A stretch of 56,754 nt of DNA from a virus. The DNA lies in the IMG/VR virus record IMGVR_UViG_3300046656_000441, positions 1 to 56,754 of that record; one strand, written 5' to 3'. Position 1 is the first letter of the stretch, and every line of letters begins with the position of its first letter. Positions 4,707 to 52,403 of this stretch are shown here, one piece after another. The notes beneath the pieces are model-generated. The model ran no database searches, was not told the origin of the DNA, and was given only the letters and a program-made list of their open reading frames with translations. A program made the translations under genes and the position numbers.

Positions 4707-4956
4707 TAGCTATCGCCGTTACAGCGCTGACTCGGAGGACCTTGGGAGCACGACGCGTGAGGACGCCAAGCGCTGGCGCGCCTACATGCGGAGCCTTGAG
4801 GAGCGAGGCGCGCCGCGTAAACGCGCGCACTCCACTGGAACGATGCACGCGAGCACGCGCGCATCATTCGACGCCGCATGTGCGCGCGCACGCGCGACAC
4901 ATGAGGACGAATCAATCGATGCGCGCGAAATGTTCGCGCGCATCATCGCCAGCTAG
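4699..4956 (+). CDS. Hypothetical Arg/Ala-rich protein (85 aa)
   Basis: It starts MSDSYRRYSADSEDLGS after AAAAGGGAG. It is Arg-, Ala- and Ser-rich with a helical C-terminus, and its DNA is dense in CGCG/GCGC words. No family is recognised. It is the last gene before a 526-bp non-coding region. Confidence 0.5.
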   Translation: MSDSYRRYSADSEDLGSTTREDAKRWRAYMRSLEERGAPRKRAHSTGTMHASTRASFDAACARARATHEDESIDAREMFARIIAS

Positions 4957-4969
4957 ACTGCTACTCGGG

Positions 4970-4990
4970 ACGCGCGCCTAGTGCGCGCGT
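4970..4990 (+). terminator. Hairpin after leader block
   Basis: ACGCGCGC (4970-4977) pairs perfectly with GCGCGCGT (4983-4990) around a five-base loop, 14 nt after the stop at 4956. No T-run follows. It could end or stabilise the leader transcript. Confidence 0.4.
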
Positions 4991-5101
4991 TCCGCCCATC
5001 ATCATCGACGCGCGCATCACGCGCGCATCACTCCCGCCCATTACGCCATTCAACGTAACGCGCGACACGTGCGCGGCGCGCGCGCGTCGCATCGATTGAC
5101 A

Positions 5102-7728: not shown

Positions 7729-9861
7729 ATGCTGGACGAAGGACAAGTCAACATTCCCGAGGGCAACGATGTGCCCGACACCGTGGCGAACGCGAACCCG
7801 GCGTCAACCGCGGACACCGACCGCTGGCGCGGTCGCATCGCGAAGTCGCGGCGCTACCGTCGAGACCTGACGGAGGATTGGCGCACGAACATCGACTTCC
7901 GCCGCGGCAAGGTGTTCGATGCCGACTCCGACATGGACCGGATTGCCATCACCTATGATTGGTCAGCCACCAAGGCGAAGCAGGCGCAGCTGTTCAGCCA
8001 GGTTCCCCAGGTGCGCCTCAAGGCGAAGAACAAGCGCTACGAGAAGGGCGTCCCCGTCTTCGCGAAGAAGCTGAACGACGCGCTGTCGCACGCCGACGTC
8101 GGCACCGCGATGGACGAGTGCTTGCCCAACTGCATCAACGCCGCCGGAGTCGGGCTCGTGCTCATCGCCTATGAGACGCGCACCGAGGACCGCGTGTTGC
8201 CGTCCGTGACGAAGCCGGCGCCGCCCGCGCCAATGATGATTCCGGGACAGCCGCCGCCACCCGCGGCGCCACCGATGGACGTCAACGGCGCCCCCGACAC
8301 CGGGGAAGCCGAGGCACCCGGCGCACCGGAGGAGACCCCGGAGCAGCCGATTCCCTACACCACCGCGCGGCGCTTCACCATCGACAGCCTGAGCCCGAGC
8401 GATGCGCTGTGGGACCTGACGTTTACCGGGTCCAACTTCAACCGCGCCCCGTGGGTTGGGCGCAGCGGACGCATGCACTTCTCGAAAGCGATGAAGGAGT
8501 TCGGGCTGAAGCCGAGCGACAAGGCGACCGTGTGCGGCACTGGCACGCAGCAAGCTTACGACCGGTTGTCCGAGGACGCCGACAAGGACCGGTTTGCCGA
8601 AGCGAACATGGTCGAGTTCGATGAGGTGTTCTACTGGCGCTACCTGTATCACGACGACGAAACGAGTTTCGAGGCCATCCAGCGCCTGGTGTTCGTGCAC
8701 GGGCGCGGCACGCCTGTGGTCAACGAGCCCTGGAAGGGGCAGCGCCGGCTCGACGCAGACGGACAGGAATCCGAAACGGGCGACATCATCGTGGGCTCCT
8801 GCAAGTTCCCCATCCAGTTCCTGACGCTGACCTATGTGACGGACAGCGCGATTCCGCCGTCCGACTCCGCGATGGGCCGGCCGCAAATCGAGGAACTCAT
8901 CCAGGGTCGCACCGACATGATGCTGCAGCGGCGTCAGTCGCGCCCGATGCGCTGGATGAACAACAACCTGGTTCCGCCAGCCCTGGTCACCGCGATTATG
9001 CGCGGCACCTGGCAGGGTGTCGTGCCCATCAACGGACCCGGCGAGCGCGCCTTCGGGGAAGTCGCACGCGCGAGCTACCCGCACGAGGACGACACCTTCG
9101 ACCGTATCGCGAAGAACGACCTGATGGAGACCTGGAATATCGGCGGGTCCCAGGGCATCGGCGGCGGCTCGAACACGCAAATCCGCACCGCGGCGGAAGC
9201 GAACAACGCCCAGTCCAACATGCAGACCCGGGTGGGCTACGAGCGCGCCCGCTGCAACAAGTTCTTCTGCAACATCGCAGAAGTCCTCGCCGGCCTCATC
9301 TGCCTGTTCGGGGAGTGGGACGAGGAAGAGACCGCGGCGCTCCAGGGCATGGACGTCCAACACATGCCCAGCTACTACATGTATACGACGCGCACCGATT
9401 CGAGCGTGCTGCTCGACGCGGAACAGCGTTACTCGCGCCTTGAGCGCTACACCAACATCGCGGCGAAGTCGGGTCTGGCCGACATGGTCCCGGTGCTCCA
9501 GGAGATGGCGAGCCTGGTGGACGTAGACGAGTCGACGGTGGCGCGGCCGACTGGTGGGAAGCCGGAGCCGGTTAACGTCTCGCTCCGTGTGGATGAACAG
9601 TCGCTGCAGGACCCGATTGTCGTGGCGATGCTCATCGAATCCGGCCAGTTCCCCAAGCCGGAAACCCTGGAGATGGCGAAGAAGGCCATCATGCAGTCGC
9701 GTCAGCTACCCGTGCCGCCGCCGCCTCCGGGTATGCCACCTGGTGGCCCAGGCGGAGCGCCGCCACCCGAGAGCGCACCTCAGCCGGCGCAGCCGGCGGA
9801 CGCCAACGCCCACTGGGACATGGCGGGCCGGGTCAACAAGCGTCAGCAGGACGGTCGATGA
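7729..9861 (+). CDS. Portal protein
   Basis: At 710 residues this fits the large portal proteins of short-tailed phages. It follows terminase directly and precedes scaffold and coat. The N-terminal third contains the region around WRTNIDFRRGKVFD and DRIAITYDW found in many environmental podovirus portals. A Pro-rich insertion lies at about residues 160-205, and the C-terminus is Pro/Gly-rich (PVPPPPPGMPPGGPGG). It forms the dodecameric ring through which DNA enters and leaves the capsid. No catalytic motif is expected. Confidence 0.85.
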   Translation: MLDEGQVNIPEGNDVPDTVANANPASTADTDRWRGRIAKSRRYRRDLTEDWRTNIDFRRGKVFDADSDMDRIAITYDWSATKAKQAQLFSQVPQVRLKAKNKRYEKGVPVFAKKLNDALSHADVGTAMDECLPNCINAAGVGLVLIAYETRTEDRVLPSVTKPAPPAPMMIPGQPPPPAAPPMDVNGAPDTGEAEAPGAPEETPEQPIPYTTARRFTIDSLSPSDALWDLTFTGSNFNRAPWVGRSGRMHFSKAMKEFGLKPSDKATVCGTGTQQAYDRLSEDADKDRFAEANMVEFDEVFYWRYLYHDDETSFEAIQRLVFVHGRGTPVVNEPWKGQRRLDADGQESETGDIIVGSCKFPIQFLTLTYVTDSAIPPSDSAMGRPQIEELIQGRTDMMLQRRQSRPMRWMNNNLVPPALVTAIMRGTWQGVVPINGPGERAFGEVARASYPHEDDTFDRIAKNDLMETWNIGGSQGIGGGSNTQIRTAAEANNAQSNMQTRVGYERARCNKFFCNIAEVLAGLICLFGEWDEEETAALQGMDVQHMPSYYMYTTRTDSSVLLDAEQRYSRLERYTNIAAKSGLADMVPVLQEMASLVDVDESTVARPTGGKPEPVNVSLRVDEQSLQDPIVVAMLIESGQFPKPETLEMAKKAIMQSRQLPVPPPPPGMPPGGPGGAPPPESAPQPAQPADANAHWDMAGRVNKRQQDGR

Positions 9862-10253
9862 GCTTCAGTTTCCGAGACCAGGAGCGCCTGCGAGGGGTGC
9901 TCCCGGCTCTCACCACGCTGCTCGCTCGGGTCTTCGAGGAGCAGCAAGCGGCCGGCGCCCCCATGTTTGTCGTGATGGGGGTTCGCACCACCGCTGAGCA
10001 GCAAGCACTCTACGCCCAGGGCCGCACAGCGCCCGGGAAAATCGTGACGATGAAAGATGGAGTCGTGCACAAGTCGAACCACCAGCTGAAGGAGGACGGA
10101 TTCGGCCACGGGGTCGACTGCGCCTTCATCGGCTCGGACCCGTTCGAGGACAAGCACGACTGGGAAGCGTTCGGCCGGCGCGTCGAGGCGCACGGCGGAA
10201 CCTGGGGTGGCCGCTGGGCTCACCCGCACGACGCCCCACACGTCGAACTGTAG
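9858..10253 (+). CDS. M15-type peptidase, probable endolysin
   Basis: This 131-residue protein matches the D-Ala-D-Ala/L-Ala-D-Glu carboxypeptidase fold used as phage endolysin (T5 Lys type). The metal and catalytic residues are visible: SNHQ...GHGVDCAF gives the SxHxxGxAxD-like zinc site and the end WAHPHDAPHVEL gives the final His. An LYAQGRTAPGKIVT segment is typical of the family. It would cut peptidoglycan peptides at lysis. There is no signal peptide, so a holin is needed. Its place right after the portal is unusual, and the start overlaps the portal stop by 4 nt. Confidence 0.85.
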   Translation: MSFSFRDQERLRGVLPALTTLLARVFEEQQAAGAPMFVVMGVRTTAEQQALYAQGRTAPGKIVTMKDGVVHKSNHQLKEDGFGHGVDCAFIGSDPFEDKHDWEAFGRRVEAHGGTWGGRWAHPHDAPHVEL

Positions 10254-10254
10254 T

Positions 10255-10270
10255 TGGCACGCTCCTTGCT
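10255..10270 (+). promoter_or_regulatory. Sigma-54 promoter, exact consensus
   Basis: TGGCACG (10255-10261), CTCC, then TTGCT (10266-10270) matches the RpoN -24/-12 consensus at every conserved position. It occupies the 40-bp gap between the endolysin stop (10253) and the gene at 10294. The expected start is about 10281, leaving a short leader with TGGAGA before the GTG. This is the best-placed such site in the genome and would drive the zinc-ribbon/Acb2-like genes. Confidence 0.6.
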
Positions 10271-10293: not shown

Positions 10294-10821
10294 GTGAAAA
10301 TGGTAGACGCTCAGTGCAAGACCTGTGCCACCGTGCGCGTGGACACGCTCATGCGCGACACCGGGTTCATCGCCCCCTGCCAGGAATGCGGCGCCGATAT
10401 GGAGCCGCTGTCCACCACATCGCGCCCGAGCGCGACCACGCCAGCCGTCGCTCCTGATTCAATCCCTGGAGGGATGTGGATTCGCCACGGCATCTGTAAT
10501 ATCGACGGGACCCCGCGTCGCTACGACTCGTTCTCGGAGATGCGCAAGGAAGCCAAGGCGCGCGGCCTCTACAACGTGGTCGAGCACGAGACCGACCCCA
10601 GCTCCGGCTCCGACAAGAACAAGCACACGCAGCGGTTTGTCGGCCTGCCGGCCTCCCTGACGCAAGCGGACGAGGACGCACGCGTCGCCGCGTGGTGGGC
10701 CAACGAGAAGCTCGAAGGCTACGCACCGCCGGCACCACCGACCCAGGAAACCGGTATTCGCATGGGCGGCTCGAACGACCCGCACGCGAACACCAAGGCC
10801 ATCATCAAAGCACATATCTGA
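10294..10821 (+). CDS. Zinc-ribbon protein of unknown function (175 aa)
   Basis: The first 32 residues contain CKTC and CQEC, a small zinc ribbon. After a Ser/Thr/Pro linker comes a beta-rich domain and a flexible charged tail. It starts with GTG at 10294 just downstream of a consensus sigma-54-type promoter and is followed 7 nt later by the Acb2-like gene. Being co-transcribed with a likely anti-defence gene, it could also act on the host, but nothing in the sequence shows how. Confidence 0.6.
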   Translation: MKMVDAQCKTCATVRVDTLMRDTGFIAPCQECGADMEPLSTTSRPSATTPAVAPDSIPGGMWIRHGICNIDGTPRRYDSFSEMRKEAKARGLYNVVEHETDPSSGSDKNKHTQRFVGLPASLTQADEDARVAAWWANEKLEGYAPPAPPTQETGIRMGGSNDPHANTKAIIKAHI

Positions 10822-10828
10822 GGGACAC

Positions 10829-11041
10829 ATGACACCTGAGCAGCTCGACAACTGGTTCAGCTACCACTCGCCCGACACGAGTCAGCAATACGCCTACGCG
10901 GAGATTCGCAAAGCCGCGCTGCACCTCGCCTCGGTCATCGCGAGCCACACGCCGGTCTCGGCTGACCAGACCGCCGCGGTGCGCAAGGTGCGCGAAGCCG
11001 TGATGACAGCCAACGCCGCCATCGCCTGTGGGGGTAAGTAA
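10829..11041 (+). CDS. acb2: Acb2/Tad1 hairpin-type protein, probable anti-CBASS sponge
   Basis: This 70-residue helical protein carries the pattern I know from Acb2: WFSYHSPD near the N-terminus, EIRKAALHLA in the first long helix and DQTAAVRKVREAVMTANAAI in the second. Acb2 proteins assemble as hexamers and bind cyclic di- and trinucleotides made by bacterial CBASS systems; related hairpin domains occur in the anti-Thoeris protein Tad1. Length is as expected. GAGGGACAC precedes the ATG, and the stop overlaps the next start (TAATG). Assignment is from remembered family features, not a search. Confidence 0.75.
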   Translation: MTPEQLDNWFSYHSPDTSQQYAYAEIRKAALHLASVIASHTPVSADQTAAVRKVREAVMTANAAIACGGK

Positions 11042-11499
11042 TGGGCATCATCAAGCTGACCGACGAGAAGCCGGATGCTGTGTTGCCCAACGAGCCGAAC
11101 TCTCCGACACCGACCGAGCCGGTCGAGTTCTGGAGCTTCCTGTTCAAGGGTGGCATCCAGAAGGATTTCACCATCCACACCGGGCGCAACGAGAAAGTGC
11201 TCATCGTCAAGAACGCCATCGACCAGACGCCCGTCGAGGTTCAGATTTACCTGCGGGAGGGCACCGATGGCAAGAACGAGGTAACCGGCGCGCTACGCAT
11301 CAACCTGTCCAACGTGCTCATCTGGGGCAAGGAAGACGGCGTCGAGGAAATCTACGCGCCCGGCGAATCCCCGGTCGAGAAGGAACTCAAGCGCCTCGCG
11401 GACCAGCAGCAGCAGCGCGCCGAAGCATTCGAGCGGCGCCAGGCGGAGAAGGAAGCCGCATTCGACGCCGAGATGGCGTCCATCGAGAATCGCCAGTGA
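11041..11499 (+). CDS. Hypothetical protein with coiled-coil tail (152 aa)
   Basis: The first 100 residues are beta-rich. The last 45 are a charged helix (KELKRLADQQQQRAEAFERR) likely to form a coiled coil. No family is recognised. It is coupled to the Acb2-like gene upstream and, by a 4-nt overlap, to the next gene. Position between the endolysin and scaffold suggests a minor head or host-modifying role. Confidence 0.6.
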   Translation: MGIIKLTDEKPDAVLPNEPNSPTPTEPVEFWSFLFKGGIQKDFTIHTGRNEKVLIVKNAIDQTPVEVQIYLREGTDGKNEVTGALRINLSNVLIWGKEDGVEEIYAPGESPVEKELKRLADQQQQRAEAFERRQAEKEAAFDAEMASIENRQ

Positions 11500-11750
11500 G
11501 AATCTACGTGGGCAGAGTGCGGGTCATTCGGGACCCGTATGAGCCCGAGAACCCACTCAAGGCCAGCCGGCACATCAGCCTGCCTGACCCCGAGGGGTTC
11601 ACCAAGTGGCAGGACGCGCTCGACTCCATTACCGAATGGGAAGCCGAGGCGTTCGCCTGCTGGTCTGTGACTGTGGACATAGACGGCAACCTTATGCTGA
11701 TGCTCTTCGACAAGCTCAGCAGTCATCCACACTACGTCCCATCCACGTAA
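11496..11750 (+). CDS. Hypothetical protein (84 aa), GTG start
   Basis: This acidic soluble protein starts MRIYVGRVRVIRDPYEP and ends SHPHYVPST. The GTG at 11496 overlaps the previous stop. Two beta-rich halves flank a helical WEAEAFACW segment. No family is recognised. Confidence 0.5.
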   Translation: MRIYVGRVRVIRDPYEPENPLKASRHISLPDPEGFTKWQDALDSITEWEAEAFACWSVTVDIDGNLMLMLFDKLSSHPHYVPST

Positions 11751-11762
11751 CGGAGCAGCAGC

Positions 11763-12953
11763 ATGAATCTCAGCGACATCGTCAAGGGCGCGGTCGACAC
11801 CGCGAGCGGAAGAGAACCGGAACCGGAACCGGTGGAAGACGGCTTCGTGCCGAGCGAGAATCCTGACCCCATCGAGGGCGAGGGCGACAACGATGGCGAA
11901 GTCGACCACCTGGTGGACGCCAGCAGCGAGCTCCCCATCGAGGGTGAGGAGACCGAGAACGAACCGGTGCAGGAAGAGGCGGCACCCGTCGTTGAGACGC
12001 CGGCACCCGTGGCCGAGACCGAGGACGCGTTCGCCGTCGAGCACGGCATCAAGTCCAAGGACAAGTCGGGCCGCGAGAATCGCATCCCCTACTCGAACGT
12101 CAAGAAAATCAACGAGAACGCCGTCAAGAAGGCGCGCACGCAGTGGGAAGCCGAGACCAAGCCACTGGTTGCCGAGCGCGACGCGCGCATCAAGGAATAC
12201 GAGACGCGCCTCACCAAGGTGGGCAACACCGAGAAAGTGATGTTCGAGGACGCGCCGACATTCCTCGGCATGCTCATCGAGGCCATCCCCGCCTACAAGC
12301 AGCTGCTGGGGCCGCATGTCAACCTCGACGCACAGGGGCGCGTCACCGGGCTCAAAGCCGCCGGCCCACAGGTTGACCCGAACGACCCGGAGCCACAGCC
12401 CGATGTGGACATGGGCAACGGTCAAATCGGTTACTCCCCCGAGCAGCACCGGAAGCTGCGCCTGTGGGACCAGCGACAGGCCGAAGAGAAAGCCTACACC
12501 CGCGCGAAGACGGACATCTCGAACGAGTTCAAGCCGATTCGCGACGTGTTCGAAATGGGGCAGCGGCAGCGCGAAGCGGCGCAGCAGCGCGAGGCCCAGG
12601 TCAACGAGGCCATGCAGTGGCCGGGCTTCCAGCAGAACTTCGACGCCATCCTCAAGGTGATGAACGAGGACAGCACCGCGAAACAGGCCGGCACCTACGC
12701 GGACTACAAGTTCCCGACGATGCGCGACGCCTACAACCACGTCATGTATCAGAAGGCGAACGGGGTCACCGAGACCGCGACCCAGATGGAAGCGCGTATC
12801 CGTAAGGAAGTGACCGAGTCGCTCCGGCGCGCGCCACGCGCCACCTCGGCGGGCGCGAGCACGGGCATCGCCCCGGTCGAGACGCCCAACCCGGCGGAGG
12901 CTGAAGGCGGCACCGCGGCCGTCATCGCGGCCAGCCTCAAGGGGCGGCGCTAG
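11763..12953 (+). CDS. Probable scaffolding protein
   Basis: This 396-residue protein lies before the coat gene. It is very acidic in its first 85 residues, helical and charged in the middle, and ends in a short basic tail (AASLKGRR). That layout is typical of internal scaffolding proteins, which use a basic C-terminal tail to bind coat subunits during prohead assembly. No protease domain is visible. Assignment is by position and composition. Confidence 0.7.
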   Translation: MNLSDIVKGAVDTASGREPEPEPVEDGFVPSENPDPIEGEGDNDGEVDHLVDASSELPIEGEETENEPVQEEAAPVVETPAPVAETEDAFAVEHGIKSKDKSGRENRIPYSNVKKINENAVKKARTQWEAETKPLVAERDARIKEYETRLTKVGNTEKVMFEDAPTFLGMLIEAIPAYKQLLGPHVNLDAQGRVTGLKAAGPQVDPNDPEPQPDVDMGNGQIGYSPEQHRKLRLWDQRQAEEKAYTRAKTDISNEFKPIRDVFEMGQRQREAAQQREAQVNEAMQWPGFQQNFDAILKVMNEDSTAKQAGTYADYKFPTMRDAYNHVMYQKANGVTETATQMEARIRKEVTESLRRAPRATSAGASTGIAPVETPNPAEAEGGTAAVIAASLKGRR

Positions 12954-13451: not shown

Positions 13452-14408
13452 ATGGTTTTGACAATCGGACAGATGGTAGCCTCCAGCTACCCGGCCGTTC
13501 AGGCTGCGAAAAAGCGCCCCGAGAACCAGTGGGCGGAGTCGGCGTTCCTGCGTGCCTGCGAGGACATGAGCATCATCAAGCGTCGGAACCTGGGTCCGAC
13601 AATCGAGGCTCCGTTCGACTGGCGGCGCAACGCGGCGGCGGAAGTCCTCGGCGCGACGGAACTCGCGGCGGCGACCCTCACCACGAAGACCGACGTCATC
13701 GGAACGGCCAGCTACGTGCCCGCGCAGATGCGCGTGCCCGTCATTTGGTCGAAGGGCGACGACGCGAAGAACCCCGAAGAGAACCAGAAGATTGACCTCG
13801 TGGCCAGCCTCCTGGACAACGGGTTCGAATCGCACGACGACCTCCTGGAAGCGTCACTGTTCGTGACGACCAGCGTCGGCGGCGACGAAATCCTCGGCCT
13901 GGACACCATCATCTCGACGGACGGTCTCGGGACCATCGGCGGGGTTGTGGGTTCGGCGGAGTCGTTCTGGCGCTCGAAGGTTGACGGCTACACGTCAGGC
14001 GACGACCTCGAAGCCGGCCTCGAAGCCCTGTGGGTGCGCATCGAGCGCGGCACGGGCTCGCCGCTGAAGCCGCAGCTGGTCGTGAGCGGGGGCAGCACGC
14101 TGGCCCTGTTCAACTCGACCCAGCAAGGGTTTCAGCGCTACACCAACAGCCAGGAGCTGAAGGCGTCGTTCAAGACGACCGCGTTCAAGACGGCCATGTG
14201 GGTTTACTCCCAGTATGGTCCGGCGTCGGACGTCTACATGCTCAACTCGAAGAGCTACAACGTCGTTGTGTCCAAGGAATACTTCCGCAAAAAGGGACAG
14301 ACGATGGAGCAGCAGGCGTCGGAGGGCTACGTGTTCAAGATTTACAGCGCCCTTCAGGCCATCACGAACAACCGTTCGCGCCTCGGCCGTCTCGTCTTCG
14401 CGGGCTAG
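13452..14408 (+). CDS. Major capsid protein
   Basis: This 318-residue protein follows the scaffold and has its own leader promoter and terminator, as expected for the most abundant protein. It has the alpha/beta character of an HK97-fold coat, including a long N-terminal helix region and repeated beta segments (SYVPAQMRVPVIWS). GGAG lies before the ATG at 13452. I cannot name a subfamily. Position, size and the dedicated transcription signals carry the call. Confidence 0.8.
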   Translation: MVLTIGQMVASSYPAVQAAKKRPENQWAESAFLRACEDMSIIKRRNLGPTIEAPFDWRRNAAAEVLGATELAAATLTTKTDVIGTASYVPAQMRVPVIWSKGDDAKNPEENQKIDLVASLLDNGFESHDDLLEASLFVTTSVGGDEILGLDTIISTDGLGTIGGVVGSAESFWRSKVDGYTSGDDLEAGLEALWVRIERGTGSPLKPQLVVSGGSTLALFNSTQQGFQRYTNSQELKASFKTTAFKTAMWVYSQYGPASDVYMLNSKSYNVVVSKEYFRKKGQTMEQQASEGYVFKIYSALQAITNNRSRLGRLVFAG

Positions 14409-15538: not shown

Positions 15539-15856
15539 ATGCCACTCCTGAAAGGCCACAGCCCCGAAGTCATCGACCAGAACATCCGGGAGATGATTGA
15601 CGCCGGTCACCCCGAGGCACAAGCGGTGGCTGCGGCCTATCGGGAGGCGGGCAAGTCGAAGCGCGGCCACGAGGCGCGCCTCAAGAACACCAAGCACGCG
15701 GCGAAGAGCCCCAATCGACCGGGGCTCCACCCGCATCACCCGTTCAACTCGAAGAAGGCGCCCAACAACCGGCGCCCGGCGGCTCAGACGATGGAGCAAC
15801 CGGCACACATGGACGTCGTCATCTCAGGGTCGCGGACCCCGGTGGTATCGAAGTGA
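15539..15856 (+). CDS. Small conserved phage protein (105 aa)
   Basis: The N-terminus [20 protein letters not shown] followed by [19 protein letters not shown] matches a small motif common in phages (xxxGxSxxxIxxNIxxxxxAGxPxxQAVAIAxxxAGK). The rest is basic and Pro-rich. Members of this group have no known function. It lies 4 nt after the preceding stop and overlaps the next gene by 4 nt. Confidence 0.65.
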
Positions 15857-35301: not shown

Positions 35302-36270
35302 CTACCGAGTCAGTTCCCGAATGACTTCCTCGATGCTCCCGAACTGCTCGACTTGCGGGAGGTCGTAGAACACGTTTGTGTCGCGCGGTCCCACCAGCAT
35401 CACGCGATGCCCGAGCGCGAGCGCCATGCCCATCTCGCACGCCTTGCCTTCCGACTTCATCAGGTTGACGATGACCAGGGTGTTCGCTTTCTGCACCTCG
35501 GCGTAGTCGAGCGTCGCGGCCTCTTGCCGGCGAATCAGCTGGGAGTCCTCGTCCGCCTCGCGCTCGGTCCAGCCGCTGACCACTTCGATGCCGGCGTCGA
35601 GCAGCTGGCGCTTGTAGAATCCCATGACGTCGATGAGCTTCCACGAGCCCGCCAGGTAGACGCGCGGCTTCTCGGTTACGCCGATGGAGATAACCTCGGT
35701 GCGGTTGTTGAAGTCGTAGTAAGCGTTCATCACCGCTTCGTAAAGCTCGGGGAGGCTCGTCGCTGTGATGTCCAGGTCGACCCGCAGGCTGGCGATTTGC
35801 GCCTCGCTCGGGTGCGGGTCGTTCCCGCCGTAGCCGGGCCGGCTGATGCGAATGACGTAGCCACCGGCTTTCTTGATAGCCTCCGCCTCGTTGGGGAATC
35901 GAACGTCGCTGATGACCACGTTTGGGAACTCGCTAGCGATGCGCATCGCGCGCTCGACCCACACCTGGTGCCCGAACACGTCGCGCCCGCCTTCGGTGCC
36001 GCAGCGCTGCAGCAGCCGACGCACGTCCGGCATCGCCTTCGCTTCCTCGTAGCCGGCCGATTCGAGCACCTCGGAGTAGCGCATGAAGTGTGGGCGCCCG
36101 TTCAGCCCGTAGCCGTCGCTGTCGACCGTGTGCACATACGGGTCGATGCCCTTCGCCATTTCACGCACGCCGTCCGCGAACGCCACCTTGGCGAACCCGT
36201 AGTTGTTCACCAGGTAGTTCGCCGCCGAGTCCTTGCCGCTGCGCGCGTAGCCACAAAAGCCAATCAGCAT
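35302..36270 (-). CDS. dNMP kinase fused to deoxyribosyltransferase-like domain
   Basis: Residues 1 to about 195 are a phage-type deoxynucleoside monophosphate kinase. The P-loop GYARSGKDSAANYL lies at residues 7-20, followed by VAFADGVREM and the ISDVRFPNEAEAI segment. Residues about 203-322 match the nucleoside 2-deoxyribosyltransferase fold: RVYLAGSW, then GKACEMGMALALGH carrying the catalytic Glu. The two domains together would phosphorylate and remodel deoxynucleotides for replication. The ATG at 36270 follows GAGGAG and overlaps the SPFH-gene stop (TAATG). Confidence 0.8.
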   Translation of the reverse strand: MLIGFCGYARSGKDSAANYLVNNYGFAKVAFADGVREMAKGIDPYVHTVDSDGYGLNGRPHFMRYSEVLESAGYEEAKAMPDVRRLLQRCGTEGGRDVFGHQVWVERAMRIASEFPNVVISDVRFPNEAEAIKKAGGYVIRISRPGYGGNDPHPSEAQIASLRVDLDITATSLPELYEAVMNAYYDFNNRTEVISIGVTEKPRVYLAGSWKLIDVMGFYKRQLLDAGIEVVSGWTEREADEDSQLIRRQEAATLDYAEVQKANTLVIVNLMKSEGKACEMGMALALGHRVMLVGPRDTNVFYDLPQVEQFGSIEEVIRELTR

Positions 36271-39932: not shown

Positions 39933-40099
39933 CGCGCCAGCCTCTCCAGCGACCGCTTGTGCCGCTTTTTCATGCGTTCGATGCTTTCCTGCAGCCGGCG
40001 GTTTTCCTCCACAAGCCGCTCGCGCTCCGGGTCGGGGCAGCTGTGCACGTCATCGAAGCCGTCCGAGTAGCTGTTGCCGCACTTGCCACAAGTGGTCAT
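39929..40099 (-). CDS. Zinc-finger/coiled-coil peptide (56 aa)
   Basis: The N-terminus MTTCGKCGNSYSDGF with a later HSC forms a C2HC-type finger. The remainder is a coiled coil (ERLVEENRRLQESIERMKKR). It overlaps the polymerase stop by 4 nt (ATGA), so its translation is coupled to polymerase synthesis. It might dimerise and bind the replication complex. Confidence 0.6.
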   Translation of the reverse strand: MTTCGKCGNSYSDGFDDVHSCPDPERERLVEENRRLQESIERMKKRHKRSLERLAR

Positions 40100-42735
40100 A
40101 GCTCCACCATTTCCGACCAGTTCATGCCCGCCTCGGGCTTGGTCTCCAGCGGCACCGAGAAACCCTCGGGCGCTCTCGTCATAATCTCTTGCAAGCGTGG
40201 GGCCACGTCGAGCAGGCGCCCGCTCTCCACCTCGGACAGCAAGTCGTCGTGCGTCCACAGCAGCGGCTCGACCCAGTGCCCCTGTCGCCGTTCGGGGACA
40301 TAGACCTCTTTCCAGGACGCTGCGAGCACCTGCTTGCCAATGAACTGGGCGCCCTCCTGGATGGGCGTCGAGTAGGCGAAGCGCTCGGCCTCGGCGCGCA
40401 CCCGGGAGTCCTTCGAGCGAATCCCGCCCACGTAGCGAATCCGCCCGCTCATGCAGCGGATAAAGCCGTTCTTCTCGGCCTCGGCCACCATCTTTTGCTT
40501 GTAGATGCCGGCGCCCACATAGAGCTTGTTCGCCTCGTCTATCATCTTCTGCGCGTCGTCGTCATCGATGTCGAGGCCGGCTTTCCTCAGTTCGAGCGCC
40601 AGGCCGATGTGCGTCTGGCCCATCCAGTATCCGAAGTTGATAGCCTTCGCCGCGGTGCGCTCGCCACTGTTCTTCTCGGGGCGCCCGTAGATGCGCTGGC
40701 ACATGTTCGTGTGCAGGTCGATTTGCGAGCCATCGGGGTTGCGCCGCTCGCCCCGATAGATGGCGAGCATCACGGGGTCTTGTGACAAATGTGCTCCGAC
40801 GCGCAGCTCGACCTGCGACTCATCGAGTGACAGAAACAGGCACCCCTTGCGTGGAATAAAGCAAGCACGAAATGCCTTAGCAAACTTACCGTGCTTGGGC
40901 ATGGCGAGCAGGTTTGGGTTCTTCGCCGCCAGGCGTCCACTTGGTGTGCGGTTAAGGAGTAGCTCGCAGTGGATGCGCTGGTCGAACGGCCAGCGGTCGA
41001 CAAGGTCAGGGAGGCGCTCAACGAACGTCCATCGCAGCTTAAAATATTCACGGTAGCTCCTCACATTGGCAATGGCTGGGAACTCGGGATACATGCGCTG
41101 CAGCGCTTCGAGCACCTTGTCGTTGGTGCTGCCGCGCCCGCCCTCGGTCTGCTTGCCCAGCTGCTCAATCTGCAGCTGGTTATACAGGTAGTCGGCTACC
41201 TGGTCGCCGCTGTTCGGGTTGAAGTCTTCTCTCCCGGTGTCCGCCTGGAGCTTCGCGAGCAGCACGGCCAGTTCCGCATCGAGCTTCGCGCCGAGCCGCT
41301 GGAACGCCGCGGGGTCTGGCGCCAGGCCGACGCGCATCATGCGGTCAAGTATCGGATACGTCCCCAGGTCGAGTCGGTAGACGGGCTCCAGACCCATCGC
41401 CTGGATTTGGGGCAGCAGCTTGTGCTTGAGGCGCAGCGTCGCATCCGGGTCCCGGCTGGCGTAGCGCAGCGCCACGGCCGGGTCGACATCGCTCAGCGAC
41501 GCCTCGGGAATCTCGCTCCGCATCACCGCGTAGCCGGCCACCTGGATATCTTCGTTCTGGTCCTGCCACAGTCGGTAGGGTTCCTTCGAGCCGAGCACAC
41601 GAGCGGCCGCTTGCATGAGCGCCGGCTTGGGCAGCTTGGGGAGCACCTTGATACGGCGCTTCCTCACATTGCGCTGGAAGTCGAAGTCCTCCTGGCGCAT
41701 CGCTTGGTAGCGTGTGTTCTGCTGCTCCCACAGCTTGTGCAGATAGTCTCTGGCGTGCTTGTCTTGCGCGTCCCCCAGGACGTCCTTGTAGTCCTGCATC
41801 TCCATGCCGCACTCGCGCACCGCGAGCGGCTTGAGCCCCTGGGGAATGACGCCCAGCTCATACGCCATCAGCATCGTATCCTCGATGGGGAGCCCCTCAT
41901 CGAGGTAGTCGATGCCGCCGATGATGCGGGACAGCTTGCAGTCCCACAGTGCATTGTGGAAGACGGTTACCGGCCGCGCTTCGCGCGTCCACTCGACGTA
42001 GGCGTCGATGACGTCTTTCGAGCGGAGGAGGATGCCGTCGCCCGGCGCTTTCGAGAGCTGGACGCTCCACGGCGCGTGCGGGTAGCCTTCGGTGTCGTTG
42101 GCAACTTCGAGGTAAGCGCGGTAGTCGTCGGCCCAGGCGTGAAATGCACCGGCACTGTGAAGCTCGGCATAGTTAGTGTCGACGGCGTCGGAATGTAGCC
42201 CTCGGGCTGGGGTGAGTCCTCGAAGAATACGCCCGAGGCGTTCAAATCCGACCAGAACTCGGTTTCCGTCTTCGGGGCTATGGAATCCGCTGGCGGGATG
42301 GACCTGGGGTGCAATCGTGCAGTCTGCTCGGAGGCCACATCGAGACACAACTTCTGGAGGGGGGACAAGGTGGAGTCCCCATACTTCATCGACGTCGACA
42401 TCCCCGAGGAAATAGCGAATCGCTTCGCGACCGAGCGCCACAATGATTTTAGGTTGAACACGTGCAATCTCCTCCTTGAGGTTGTGACCCGCTTCCTCGT
42501 AATCTTCCTTCGGGTGCGGGATACCCTTGCCCGGCGCCGGCCGGCGGAAGTAGTTGGTCAGAAACCAATGCTTCCGCGGCCAGCCGATGCGCTCAAGAAG
42601 TCGGTCAACCTCTTCACCGACTTGCCCGACGAACGGTTCGTGCTTCTGCCAGTCCTTCCAGCCAGGCTCCGACCCGACGAGCATGCGCTCGTTGGGGACT
42701 CTGCCTATTCCGTTGACTGGCCGGTCGGACGCCAC
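40096..42735 (-). CDS. Uracil-DNA glycosylase/DNA polymerase A fusion
   Basis: Residues about 15-185 match type-4 uracil-DNA glycosylases: MLVGSEPGWKDWQKHEPFVG followed by VDRLLERIGW, then FLTNYFRRPAP and IIVALGREAIRYFLG. Next comes a 3'-5' exonuclease-like region with NDTEG and VFHNALWDCKLS. The polymerase domain has motif A SLDESQVELR (about residue 635), motif B RTAAKAINFGYWMG (about 695) and motif C THDDLLSEV (about 828). The canonical Tyr of motif A is Glu, and motif C is HDD instead of HDE. The fusion could excise uracil while copying. The GTG start is 5 nt after the neighbouring stop. Confidence 0.88.
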   Translation of the reverse strand: MASDRPVNGIGRVPNERMLVGSEPGWKDWQKHEPFVGQVGEEVDRLLERIGWPRKHWFLTNYFRRPAPGKGIPHPKEDYEEAGHNLKEEIARVQPKIIVALGREAIRYFLGDVDVDEVWGLHLVPPPEVVSRCGLRADCTIAPQVHPASGFHSPEDGNRVLVGFERLGRILRGLTPARGLHSDAVDTNYAELHSAGAFHAWADDYRAYLEVANDTEGYPHAPWSVQLSKAPGDGILLRSKDVIDAYVEWTREARPVTVFHNALWDCKLSRIIGGIDYLDEGLPIEDTMLMAYELGVIPQGLKPLAVRECGMEMQDYKDVLGDAQDKHARDYLHKLWEQQNTRYQAMRQEDFDFQRNVRKRRIKVLPKLPKPALMQAAARVLGSKEPYRLWQDQNEDIQVAGYAVMRSEIPEASLSDVDPAVALRYASRDPDATLRLKHKLLPQIQAMGLEPVYRLDLGTYPILDRMMRVGLAPDPAAFQRLGAKLDAELAVLLAKLQADTGREDFNPNSGDQVADYLYNQLQIEQLGKQTEGGRGSTNDKVLEALQRMYPEFPAIANVRSYREYFKLRWTFVERLPDLVDRWPFDQRIHCELLLNRTPSGRLAAKNPNLLAMPKHGKFAKAFRACFIPRKGCLFLSLDESQVELRVGAHLSQDPVMLAIYRGERRNPDGSQIDLHTNMCQRIYGRPEKNSGERTAAKAINFGYWMGQTHIGLALELRKAGLDIDDDDAQKMIDEANKLYVGAGIYKQKMVAEAEKNGFIRCMSGRIRYVGGIRSKDSRVRAEAERFAYSTPIQEGAQFIGKQVLAASWKEVYVPERRQGHWVEPLLWTHDDLLSEVESGRLLDVAPRLQEIMTRAPEGFSVPLETKPEAGMNWSEMVEL

Positions 42736-50989: not shown

Positions 50990-51871
50990 CTAGCCCAGCG
51001 TCACGATGTCGCTGGTCTTGTCGAAGTTGACACCGTCCAGGGTGCCGAGCTTCTCGACGTCGAGCGCGAATGCACGAACCGCCTCACGCAGGTTGGCGTC
51101 CATGCTGTCCATCGCCTGGAGGAGCTTCACGCTGAGCTTGTTCCGCGTCAGCTTGTTCTCTTTCGCAGCCTTCAGGACCTGGGCCACCATCGTCTCCGCG
51201 GTCGCTTCGACAAGCGCCGCATCGACCGCAACGGACGCGCCGGCCTTCGAGCTGCCGGTGTTCGAGCTGCCGGCGAGCTTCGGCTGCGCCAGCTTCGTGA
51301 TGTCTTCCTGGCCGTAGTAGTTCGCGATGACCAGGTTCTCACGCTTGAACGTGCCACCCGGCTTGCCGTCCTTCGGAGCCACCACACGCGGGTGGTCGAC
51401 GGACCACTTGTCGGTTGCCGCCGCCCAGTCGAACATGGCGCGCACGCCGCGAATGTTCGAGTAGTCCGCCACGAGACCCGCGGGGTCCTCCGGGAAGTTC
51501 TCTTCGCTGAAGCCGTCCCCGCCGTCGACCGGCGCCGACAGGGAGTTCAGGAAGATAATCCACGGGGAGTCCTTGTAGAACCCCTTGGTGCCCTTGAGAC
51601 CGCGGCCGTCCGCCACAATCTCGTAGTCCTTGGCGTCGCCCACCTTGATGGGCTGCAGCGAGGGACCCTGTTCCTGCCGGCCATCTTCCTGGATGGTCAG
51701 CACCGCGAACAGCGCCTTGTAGGTGGACGGCTTGCCGTCCTTGCCGAGTGCCTGCCGTTCTTCCTTGAAGAGCGGGTTCTTGGTGGTGAAATTGATGTCG
51801 AGCACCACCCCGTCCTTGCGACGGAGGATTCCGCCGCCACCGACTGCTTTCGACGCGCGAGCTGAAGGCAT
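50990..51871 (-). CDS. Putative DNA-binding replication protein (293 aa)
   Basis: The protein starts MPSARASKAVGGGG, carrying the shared N-terminal tag. The first 190 residues are beta-rich with many Lys and aromatic residues (FFTTK-like and FKRENLVIANYYGQEDITKL segments), followed by a flexible Ser/Gly linker and a helical C-terminal domain. Size, layout and placement between helicase and RepA-like genes suggest a single-stranded DNA-binding or annealing protein, but I cannot match a family. A good ribosome site (GAGGAG) and an exact sigma-54 element lie upstream. Confidence 0.55.
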   Translation of the reverse strand: MPSARASKAVGGGGILRRKDGVVLDINFTTKNPLFKEERQALGKDGKPSTYKALFAVLTIQEDGRQEQGPSLQPIKVGDAKDYEIVADGRGLKGTKGFYKDSPWIIFLNSLSAPVDGGDGFSEENFPEDPAGLVADYSNIRGVRAMFDWAAATDKWSVDHPRVVAPKDGKPGGTFKRENLVIANYYGQEDITKLAQPKLAGSSNTGSSKAGASVAVDAALVEATAETMVAQVLKAAKENKLTRNKLSVKLLQAMDSMDANLREAVRAFALDVEKLGTLDGVNFDKTSDIVTLG

Positions 51872-51875
51872 TCTG

Positions 51876-52403
51876 TTACTCCTCTGATTCGAGTTGACTG
51901 ACCGGGTTCACAGGTTCTTCTGCAAGCGGCGTGCCAGTGGCCTGCACCAGCTCCCGCAGCTTCACGAGCGCCTCCGGGGAATACTCGCAGCCACATGTGG
52001 GCAGGAGGTTGTCCCCGATGGCGTGCCGGTGCCCCGGGAGCACCGGCAAGAGGTCGATGATGGGCTGGAGCGCCTTGCGCTCCGCCTCGCGCCGCGCCCG
52101 CATCAGGGCTTTGCGCCCCTTGCGAAACTGGCGCCCGCTGAGCCCCGGCATTCGCTGCCAGGTGTTGCGCACCGAGCCGTCATCGTAAATCATCTGGACG
52201 GTGCCCCGAGCCGAGCGCATGTGGACTTCGGTGGGCTGGGGCGCACGGTTGGGGACCCGGAGGGAGATGGCGCGGCGCACCTTGCGCAGCGTGTTCTCCT
52301 CCTGGAGCCGGGCCTGGGCCGCAGCCAGCTCGGCGTCACCTACCGGGGACACCTCGTTGGCCTCGAACGGGGACACTTCCCCTTTGGTCGTTTCATCGTT
52401 CAC
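51876..52403 (-). CDS. Hypothetical protein with basic centre (175 aa)
   Basis: The protein starts MNDETTKGEVSPFEANEVSP and has a strongly basic middle (FRKGRKALMRARREAERKAL), a CGCEY motif and an acidic tail. GTG start at 52403 with AGGAGG. Its 3' end holds the sigma-54-like element for the next gene. Possibly a nucleic-acid-binding accessory protein; no family recognised. Confidence 0.5.
   Translation of the reverse strand: MNDETTKGEVSPFEANEVSPVGDAELAAAQARLQEENTLRKVRRAISLRVPNRAPQPTEVHMRSARGTVQMIYDDGSVRNTWQRMPGLSGRQFRKGRKALMRARREAERKALQPIIDLLPVLPGHRHAIGDNLLPTCGCEYSPEALVKLRELVQATGTPLAEEPVNPVSQLESEE
51921..51936 (-). promoter_or_regulatory. Sigma-54 promoter, exact consensus
   Basis: On the minus strand TGGCACG-CCGC-TTGC-A matches the RpoN consensus exactly. 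The predicted start is near 51910, giving a leader of about 40 nt with a GAGGAG ribosome site before the ATG at 51871. Orientation and distance are what a functional promoter for gene 50990..51871 would have. It lies within the last codons of the upstream gene. Confidence 0.55.

Follow-up and report, generated by a model that had tools for sequence, protein, structure and literature searches.

A putative Acb2-type cyclic-nucleotide sponge in an exchangeable head-operon slot behind a sigma-54-type promoter

Introduction

The closest described systems for the locus reported here are Acb2 and Tad1. Both proteins take up cyclic di- and trinucleotides, and Tad1 additionally takes up gcADPR of Thoeris (PMC12043709). 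It was found that phages without acb2 escape CBASS through capsid mutation, which ties the capsid to CBASS (PMC10419184). Another defence system, Panoptes, is set off by Acb2 (PMC12657218). Sponge genes have also been exchanged in the laboratory: when acb4 of SPO1 was engineered into the place of acb2 in T4, CBASS evasion was restored (PMC11722364). In mycobacteriophages of cluster E and Microbacterium phages of cluster EG, genes of the Acb2 type already carry an annotation as putative CBASS antagonists (PMC11953737, PMC13348362). For the short relatives collected in PHROG 1454, no biochemical test was found in the literature searched.

Here, we describe a member of this group in viral DNA from IMG/VR record IMGVR_UViG_3300046656_000441 (positions 1–56,754), and this whole stretch of 56,754 nucleotides is called the window below. 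Its first 25 kb gave no megablast match to known phages, and no match to its portal-position gene or terminase was found in genome contigs. Like Acb2 of PaMx33 and T4 (Vs.4), the window protein belongs to Pfam family PF24729, has a three-helix topology, and carries a pocket Tyr and a basic residue at the same spacing. Unlike them, it has 70 amino acids instead of 88–93. Its gene is part of a head operon that has a sigma-54-type promoter in front, whereas acb2 of T4 is found among small genes unrelated to the head. With Tad1 (PDB 7uav and 8kbe) it has in common the slot that both occupy in near-identical relatives, and the Pfam family name covers the hairpin of both. However, there is no significant sequence or profile similarity between Tad1 and the window protein, and the N-terminal beta domain of Tad1 (PMC12043709) is missing from the latter. 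Since the window protein is all helical and has no such domain, it is of the Acb2 type rather than a Tad1. Further likeness is seen with the "Acb2/Tad1 hairpin domain-containing" proteins of PHROG 1454 from Mycobacterium, Gordonia and Paenibacillus phages, which among the matches listed are about 37–49% identical to it over nearly the full length. We consider it highly probable (about 0.85) that the gene encodes an Acb2-type sponge, most likely a nucleotide-binding hexamer, in an exchangeable slot of the head operon behind a sigma-54-type promoter.

The gene and its operon

The sponge gene (10829–11041, plus strand) starts with ATG and encodes 70 amino acids. The original prediction, a 70-residue helical protein with the Acb2 pattern SYHSPD, EIRKAALHLA and REAVMTANAAI, was accurate in coordinates, length and all three motifs. 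The ATG lies 7 bp past the stop codon of the preceding gene, with a GAGG stretch resembling a ribosome site in between, and the stop codon shares TAATG with the start of the following gene. Upstream, a gene at 7729–9861 (+) sits between the terminase and the scaffold and head genes; it had no match in a PHROG search, and its position and length suggest that it is the portal. It is followed by an endolysin of the M15-like peptidase type at 9858–10253 (+), which matches PHROG 465 (E 3.5e-17) and, below the cut-off, Pfam Peptidase_M15_4 (E 2.6e-4). Next comes the gene of a zinc-ribbon-like head-module protein at 10294–10821 (+), co-directional with the sponge gene, which encodes two CxxC (Cys-X2-Cys) motifs and matches a Pfam zinc ribbon only at E 0.085. 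Downstream of the sponge gene, the gene overlapping its stop codon (11041–11499, +) and a called gene of 84 amino acids (11496–11750, +) have no family match in Pfam or PHROG. A scaffold-like gene of 396 amino acids (11763–12953, +), which is kept in relatives, then precedes the major head protein at 13452–14408 (+; PHROG 9953, E 1.6e-13). Thus, the sponge gene does lie between endolysin and scaffold and behind both a zinc-ribbon gene and an exact sigma-54-type site (10255–10270), as had been proposed; the endolysin is identified by its PHROG match and the scaffold by position only.

Of two other points in the original prediction, one needed correction and one found no support. The interval 11041–11750, which had been read as one gene, is 710 bases long and not a single reading frame, and it contains the two genes given above. 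It had also been suggested that the neighbours may counter defence. In 60 of 64 relatives, nearly all of them without a sponge, the zinc-ribbon gene comes after the portal-position gene; it is therefore a core gene of the head module and probably not a counter-defence gene. The gene at 11041–11499 is confined to the sponge-bearing clade in a profile search of relatives, but apart from having no family match it gave no confident fold (pLDDT 53.5, with too few relatives).

Elsewhere in the window, a single protein encoded at 40096–42684 (−) joins DNA polymerase A (Pfam DNA_pol_A, E 7e-72) to an N-terminal uracil-DNA-glycosylase domain (UDG, E 1.7e-14). Another, encoded at 35302–36270 (−), joins a deoxynucleotide monophosphate kinase domain to a weak, below-cut-off match to nucleoside 2-deoxyribosyltransferase, and may hint at modified nucleotides.

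Family membership, fold and binding-site positions

A profile search against the Acb2/Tad1 hairpin family, which the original prediction had named among its checks, assigned the protein to PF24729 (Acb2_Tad1_hairpin) with E 2.2e-10 and 41 bits against a curated cut-off of 27. Residues 11–67 were aligned to positions 1–58 of the 58-position profile. T4 Acb2 falls into the same Pfam family with 71 bits. PHROG 1454 was matched with E 3.8e-16, and NCBIfam and PADLOC gave no match to the protein. Relatives are encoded in 160 IMG/VR viral-contig stretches, as counted in a single pattern scan, and in 116 annotated phage records. A homologue annotated only as a hypothetical protein lies directly behind the portal gene of the unrelated Gordonia phage Chidiebere (MN586022, 11838–12056), and is followed there by genes annotated as RNA ligase and VIP2-like ADP-ribosyltransferase.

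The AlphaFold (AF2) model is of high confidence (pLDDT 95.7) and all helical, with helices at residues 3–9, 17–40 and 45–66. A short N-terminal helix is followed by two long antiparallel helices, with no further domain, and the same three-helix arrangement has been reported for Acb2 (PMC10419184). When the model was compared with the viral models of BFVD by Foldseek, 15 of the first 17 hits carried the name Acb2/Tad1 hairpin, and two were unnamed. Against the PDB (350,542 chains), where E-values were weak, the T4 Acb2–cGAMP structure 7uq2 ranked 2, 3 and 11 (E about 3) and Tad1 7uaw ranked 21. Neither 7uq2 nor 8ixz was returned by direct sequence searches of the PDB with phmmer or with hmmsearch using a 64-member profile, and the direct match between the Acb2 proteins of T4 and PaMx33 itself reaches only E 0.026. 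HHalign comparison of the sponge profile with T4 Acb2 and with Tad1 was not significant either, for which narrow profiles are a likely reason. The link to Acb2 runs via the Pfam profile and the fold. From this profile match and the predicted structure, the 70-residue protein is almost certainly a further member of the known Acb2-type sponge family.

Residues of the binding site were mapped via the Pfam coordinates, in which residue 7 of T4 Acb2 corresponds to residue 11 of the sponge. Substitution of T4 Y8 by Ala disrupts dinucleotide binding (PMC12657218). This Tyr, which is Y11 in PaMx33, maps onto Y12 of the sponge. T4 K23 and PaMx33 K26, the latter presumably the basic residue of the pocket, map onto R27, so that a basic residue stands 15 positions past the Tyr in all three proteins. 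Across the 67 aligned homologues, position 12 is Tyr in 63 and position 27 is Arg in all; F10, D46, R52, R55, E56, A57, T60 and A61 are likewise invariant. The base-stacking residue F82 of T4 is replaced by Ala66 in the sponge, as it is by Ala in the founding PaMx33 protein. Loss of the ligand-binding residues in a structural model had been named as grounds for giving up the prediction; by alignment, Y12 and R27 are kept. Compared with T4 Acb2, the hairpin is reduced by about 20 residues, and the geometry of the pocket may differ accordingly.

Exchange of Acb2 and Tad1 in close relatives

Relatives of the window, about 80 contigs, were found with the portal-position gene and alignments made from it. 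Ten contigs including the window (the others being L040, L042 and L084–L090) share the order of portal-position gene, sigma-54-type site, zinc-ribbon gene, sponge gene and a gene like that at 11041; wherever a contig extends far enough, scaffold and head protein come next. In L086 the sponge slot is occupied by acb2 (4884–5099). In L084, L085 and L087–L090, the slot holds a gene of 123 amino acids, whose product matches the solved Tad1 structure 8kbe with a phmmer E of 2.7e-18 and has no match to PF24729.

The flanks of the slot are mostly near-identical between contigs of the two states. Upstream, over about 3.9–4.9 kb ending at the sponge start codon, L086 is 98.6–99.7% identical to L085, L087, L088 and L090, and 97.1% identical to L089. 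Downstream from the sponge stop codon, it is 99.0% identical to L088 over 5,773 bp, and the corresponding values are 96.8% for L087, 95.4% for L090, 90% for L089 and 84% for L085. The breakpoints of the exchange are thus the start and stop codons of the sponge gene. In L086, acb2 is flanked by 12-bp direct repeats, GGCAAATGATAA (at 4879 and 5091), formed by the two start-codon regions; these repeats could help the exchange. An assembly chimera was considered as the cause and rejected, as each state is found in several contigs: Acb2 in the window, L040, L042 and L086, and Tad1 in the six named above. That one sponge takes the place of another argues strongly, if indirectly, that the gene is functional. 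At least one exchange seems to have taken place in the lineage, and two would be the simplest account, because Acb2 is carried by the window, L040 and L042, but Tad1 by L089, the most distant of the close set. In the T4 experiment acb2 was replaced by acb4 through engineering, whereas the exchange in this lineage is natural.

Among about 80 Acb2 and 51 Tad1 loci compared in search of further swaps of this kind, matching flanks were found in this lineage only. One neighbour gene shared by L309 and L016 is suggestive of another swap.

Sigma-54-type sites

Promoters were sought as exact matches to the −24/−12 consensus TGGCAC-N5-TTGCW. The window contains 7 such sites, while 0.06 are expected from shuffled sequences and permuted motifs average 0.043; when the spacer is changed from 5 to any other length between 0 and 14, no site is found. 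The operon site (TGGCACGCTCCTTGCT, 10255–10270, +) fits the consensus exactly and heads the gene run from zinc ribbon through sponge to scaffold. It is present in all ten sponge-bearing contigs, where the motif columns are invariant and the flanks and the spacer vary. It was not found in the same interval of the other portal relatives, several of which stop soon after the portal-position gene. The ten contigs probably form one clade, so that they count as one association and not as ten. Beyond these relatives the exact 16-base sequence of this promoter is not informative, since the matches listed fall in many unrelated viral contigs. No sigma-70-type site was found between 9800 and 14600.

Two more sites are conserved at orthologous positions in two relatives, G001 and G002. 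The site at 2340–2355 (−) lies 15 bp upstream of a gene of the left-arm operon (2121–2324, −), and in the relatives an exact site stands before the same CAATCAGGAGG leader (at 9601 in G001 and 8778 in G002). The site at 51921–51936 (−) lies 49 bp upstream of the gene 50990–51871 (−), and exact orthologous sites stand before the same gene at 15655 in G001 and 15340 in G002. Reversed-pattern controls in this comparison gave none. Orthologous conservation was shown for these two sites and 10255. The remaining four are the site at 1928–1943 (−), which is 15 bp upstream of the gene 1550–1912 (−) and has no exact counterpart in G001 or G002, and those at 10315, 22118 and 25155, which lie within or antisense to genes. 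Judged from motif and conservation, the sigma-54-type site of the sponge operon is real and conserved, and the TGGCAC-N5-TTGCW sites are probably sigma-54-type promoters. The sigma-54 activator domain PF00158 was not found in the window, so an activator of the host would be needed.

The sites at 1928–1943 and 2340–2355 are near-copies of each other, each with a CA(A)TCAGGAGG...CACAATG leader and 15 bp before a start codon, and they resemble a small cassette of promoter and ribosome site. In L040 (2824–3036) and L042 (3924–4136), a small tryptophan-rich protein (MWRxWTxGWGPRxWW...) is encoded directly behind the sigma-54-type site. A homologue of this protein is found about 1.4 kb upstream of a Tad1 gene in L304, an otherwise different phage.

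Alternative explanations

Given the position of the gene between the portal-position gene and the scaffold and head genes, its product might instead be a small protein of head structure or assembly that has the hairpin fold by chance. The Chidiebere homologue is also placed behind a portal gene, and a terminase, portal or head–tail gene is the largest ORF near many homologues. However, the same head module occurs in most portal relatives with no sponge gene in it, homologues of other phages lie elsewhere, for example near DNA polymerase genes, and T4 acb2 is among small non-head genes. The gene is also replaced cleanly by Tad1, a sponge without significant sequence similarity to its product, and we regard this explanation as very improbable. 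Somewhat easier to entertain, and still improbable, is an Acb2-fold protein whose nucleotide binding has been lost or changed, for example towards another small molecule or signal. The shorter hairpin, the Ala at the position of T4 F82 and the weak similarity to tested Acb2 proteins would fit such a change, but among 67 homologues there is little or no variation at Y12, R27, D46, R52, R55 and E56, and the swap with Tad1 suggests a shared task.

For the promoters, it is unlikely, though less so, that the sites bind another, phage-specific regulator. The window encodes no sigma-54 activator, and some of its sites fall within genes or run antisense to them, as this explanation would allow. Intragenic sigma-54 sites are, however, common in E. 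coli (PMC4591121), and the exact −24/−12 consensus with its strict 5-base spacer, the invariant core beside a variable spacer in relatives, and the three orthologous positions before genes all argue for sigma-54-type promoters.

Implications for phage and host

If the protein is an Acb2-type sponge, it would most likely assemble into a hexamer and bind the cyclic di- and/or trinucleotides with which host systems such as CBASS signal alarm, and sequestration of the signal would keep the defence effector off. The sigma-54 holoenzyme of the host, together with a host activator, would transcribe the sponge operon, and the sponge would be produced together with the capsid proteins. The original proposal of cyclic-oligonucleotide signalling in the host population is a reasonable inference. 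Since Tad1 adds the uptake of gcADPR, swapping of the slot could track the defence repertoire of local hosts, and Panoptes could add pressure toward a change of sponge. We lean, with some reserve, towards a broader picture in which the lineage runs several operons off host sigma-54 promoters and the head-operon slot swaps Acb2 and Tad1 whole, the sponge being made with the capsid.

The literature searched, incomplete in its coverage, yielded no description of a phage in which conserved sigma-54-type promoters serve both head genes and left-arm operons, nor one of a sigma-54-driven phage head operon. Such promoters, if true, would link the expression of phage genes to an activator of the host, and the sponge would be made alongside capsid proteins, which may trigger host immunity. 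The protein extends the known Acb2 family to a 70-residue form, and the 160 relatives in viral contigs suggest that evasion of cyclic-nucleotide signalling is more widespread than one would judge from the few Acb2 proteins tested. The exchange of Acb2 and Tad1 in near-identical phages is a natural counterpart of the laboratory swap of sponge genes, and it makes testable which host signal, that of CBASS or that of Thoeris, each state of the slot answers.
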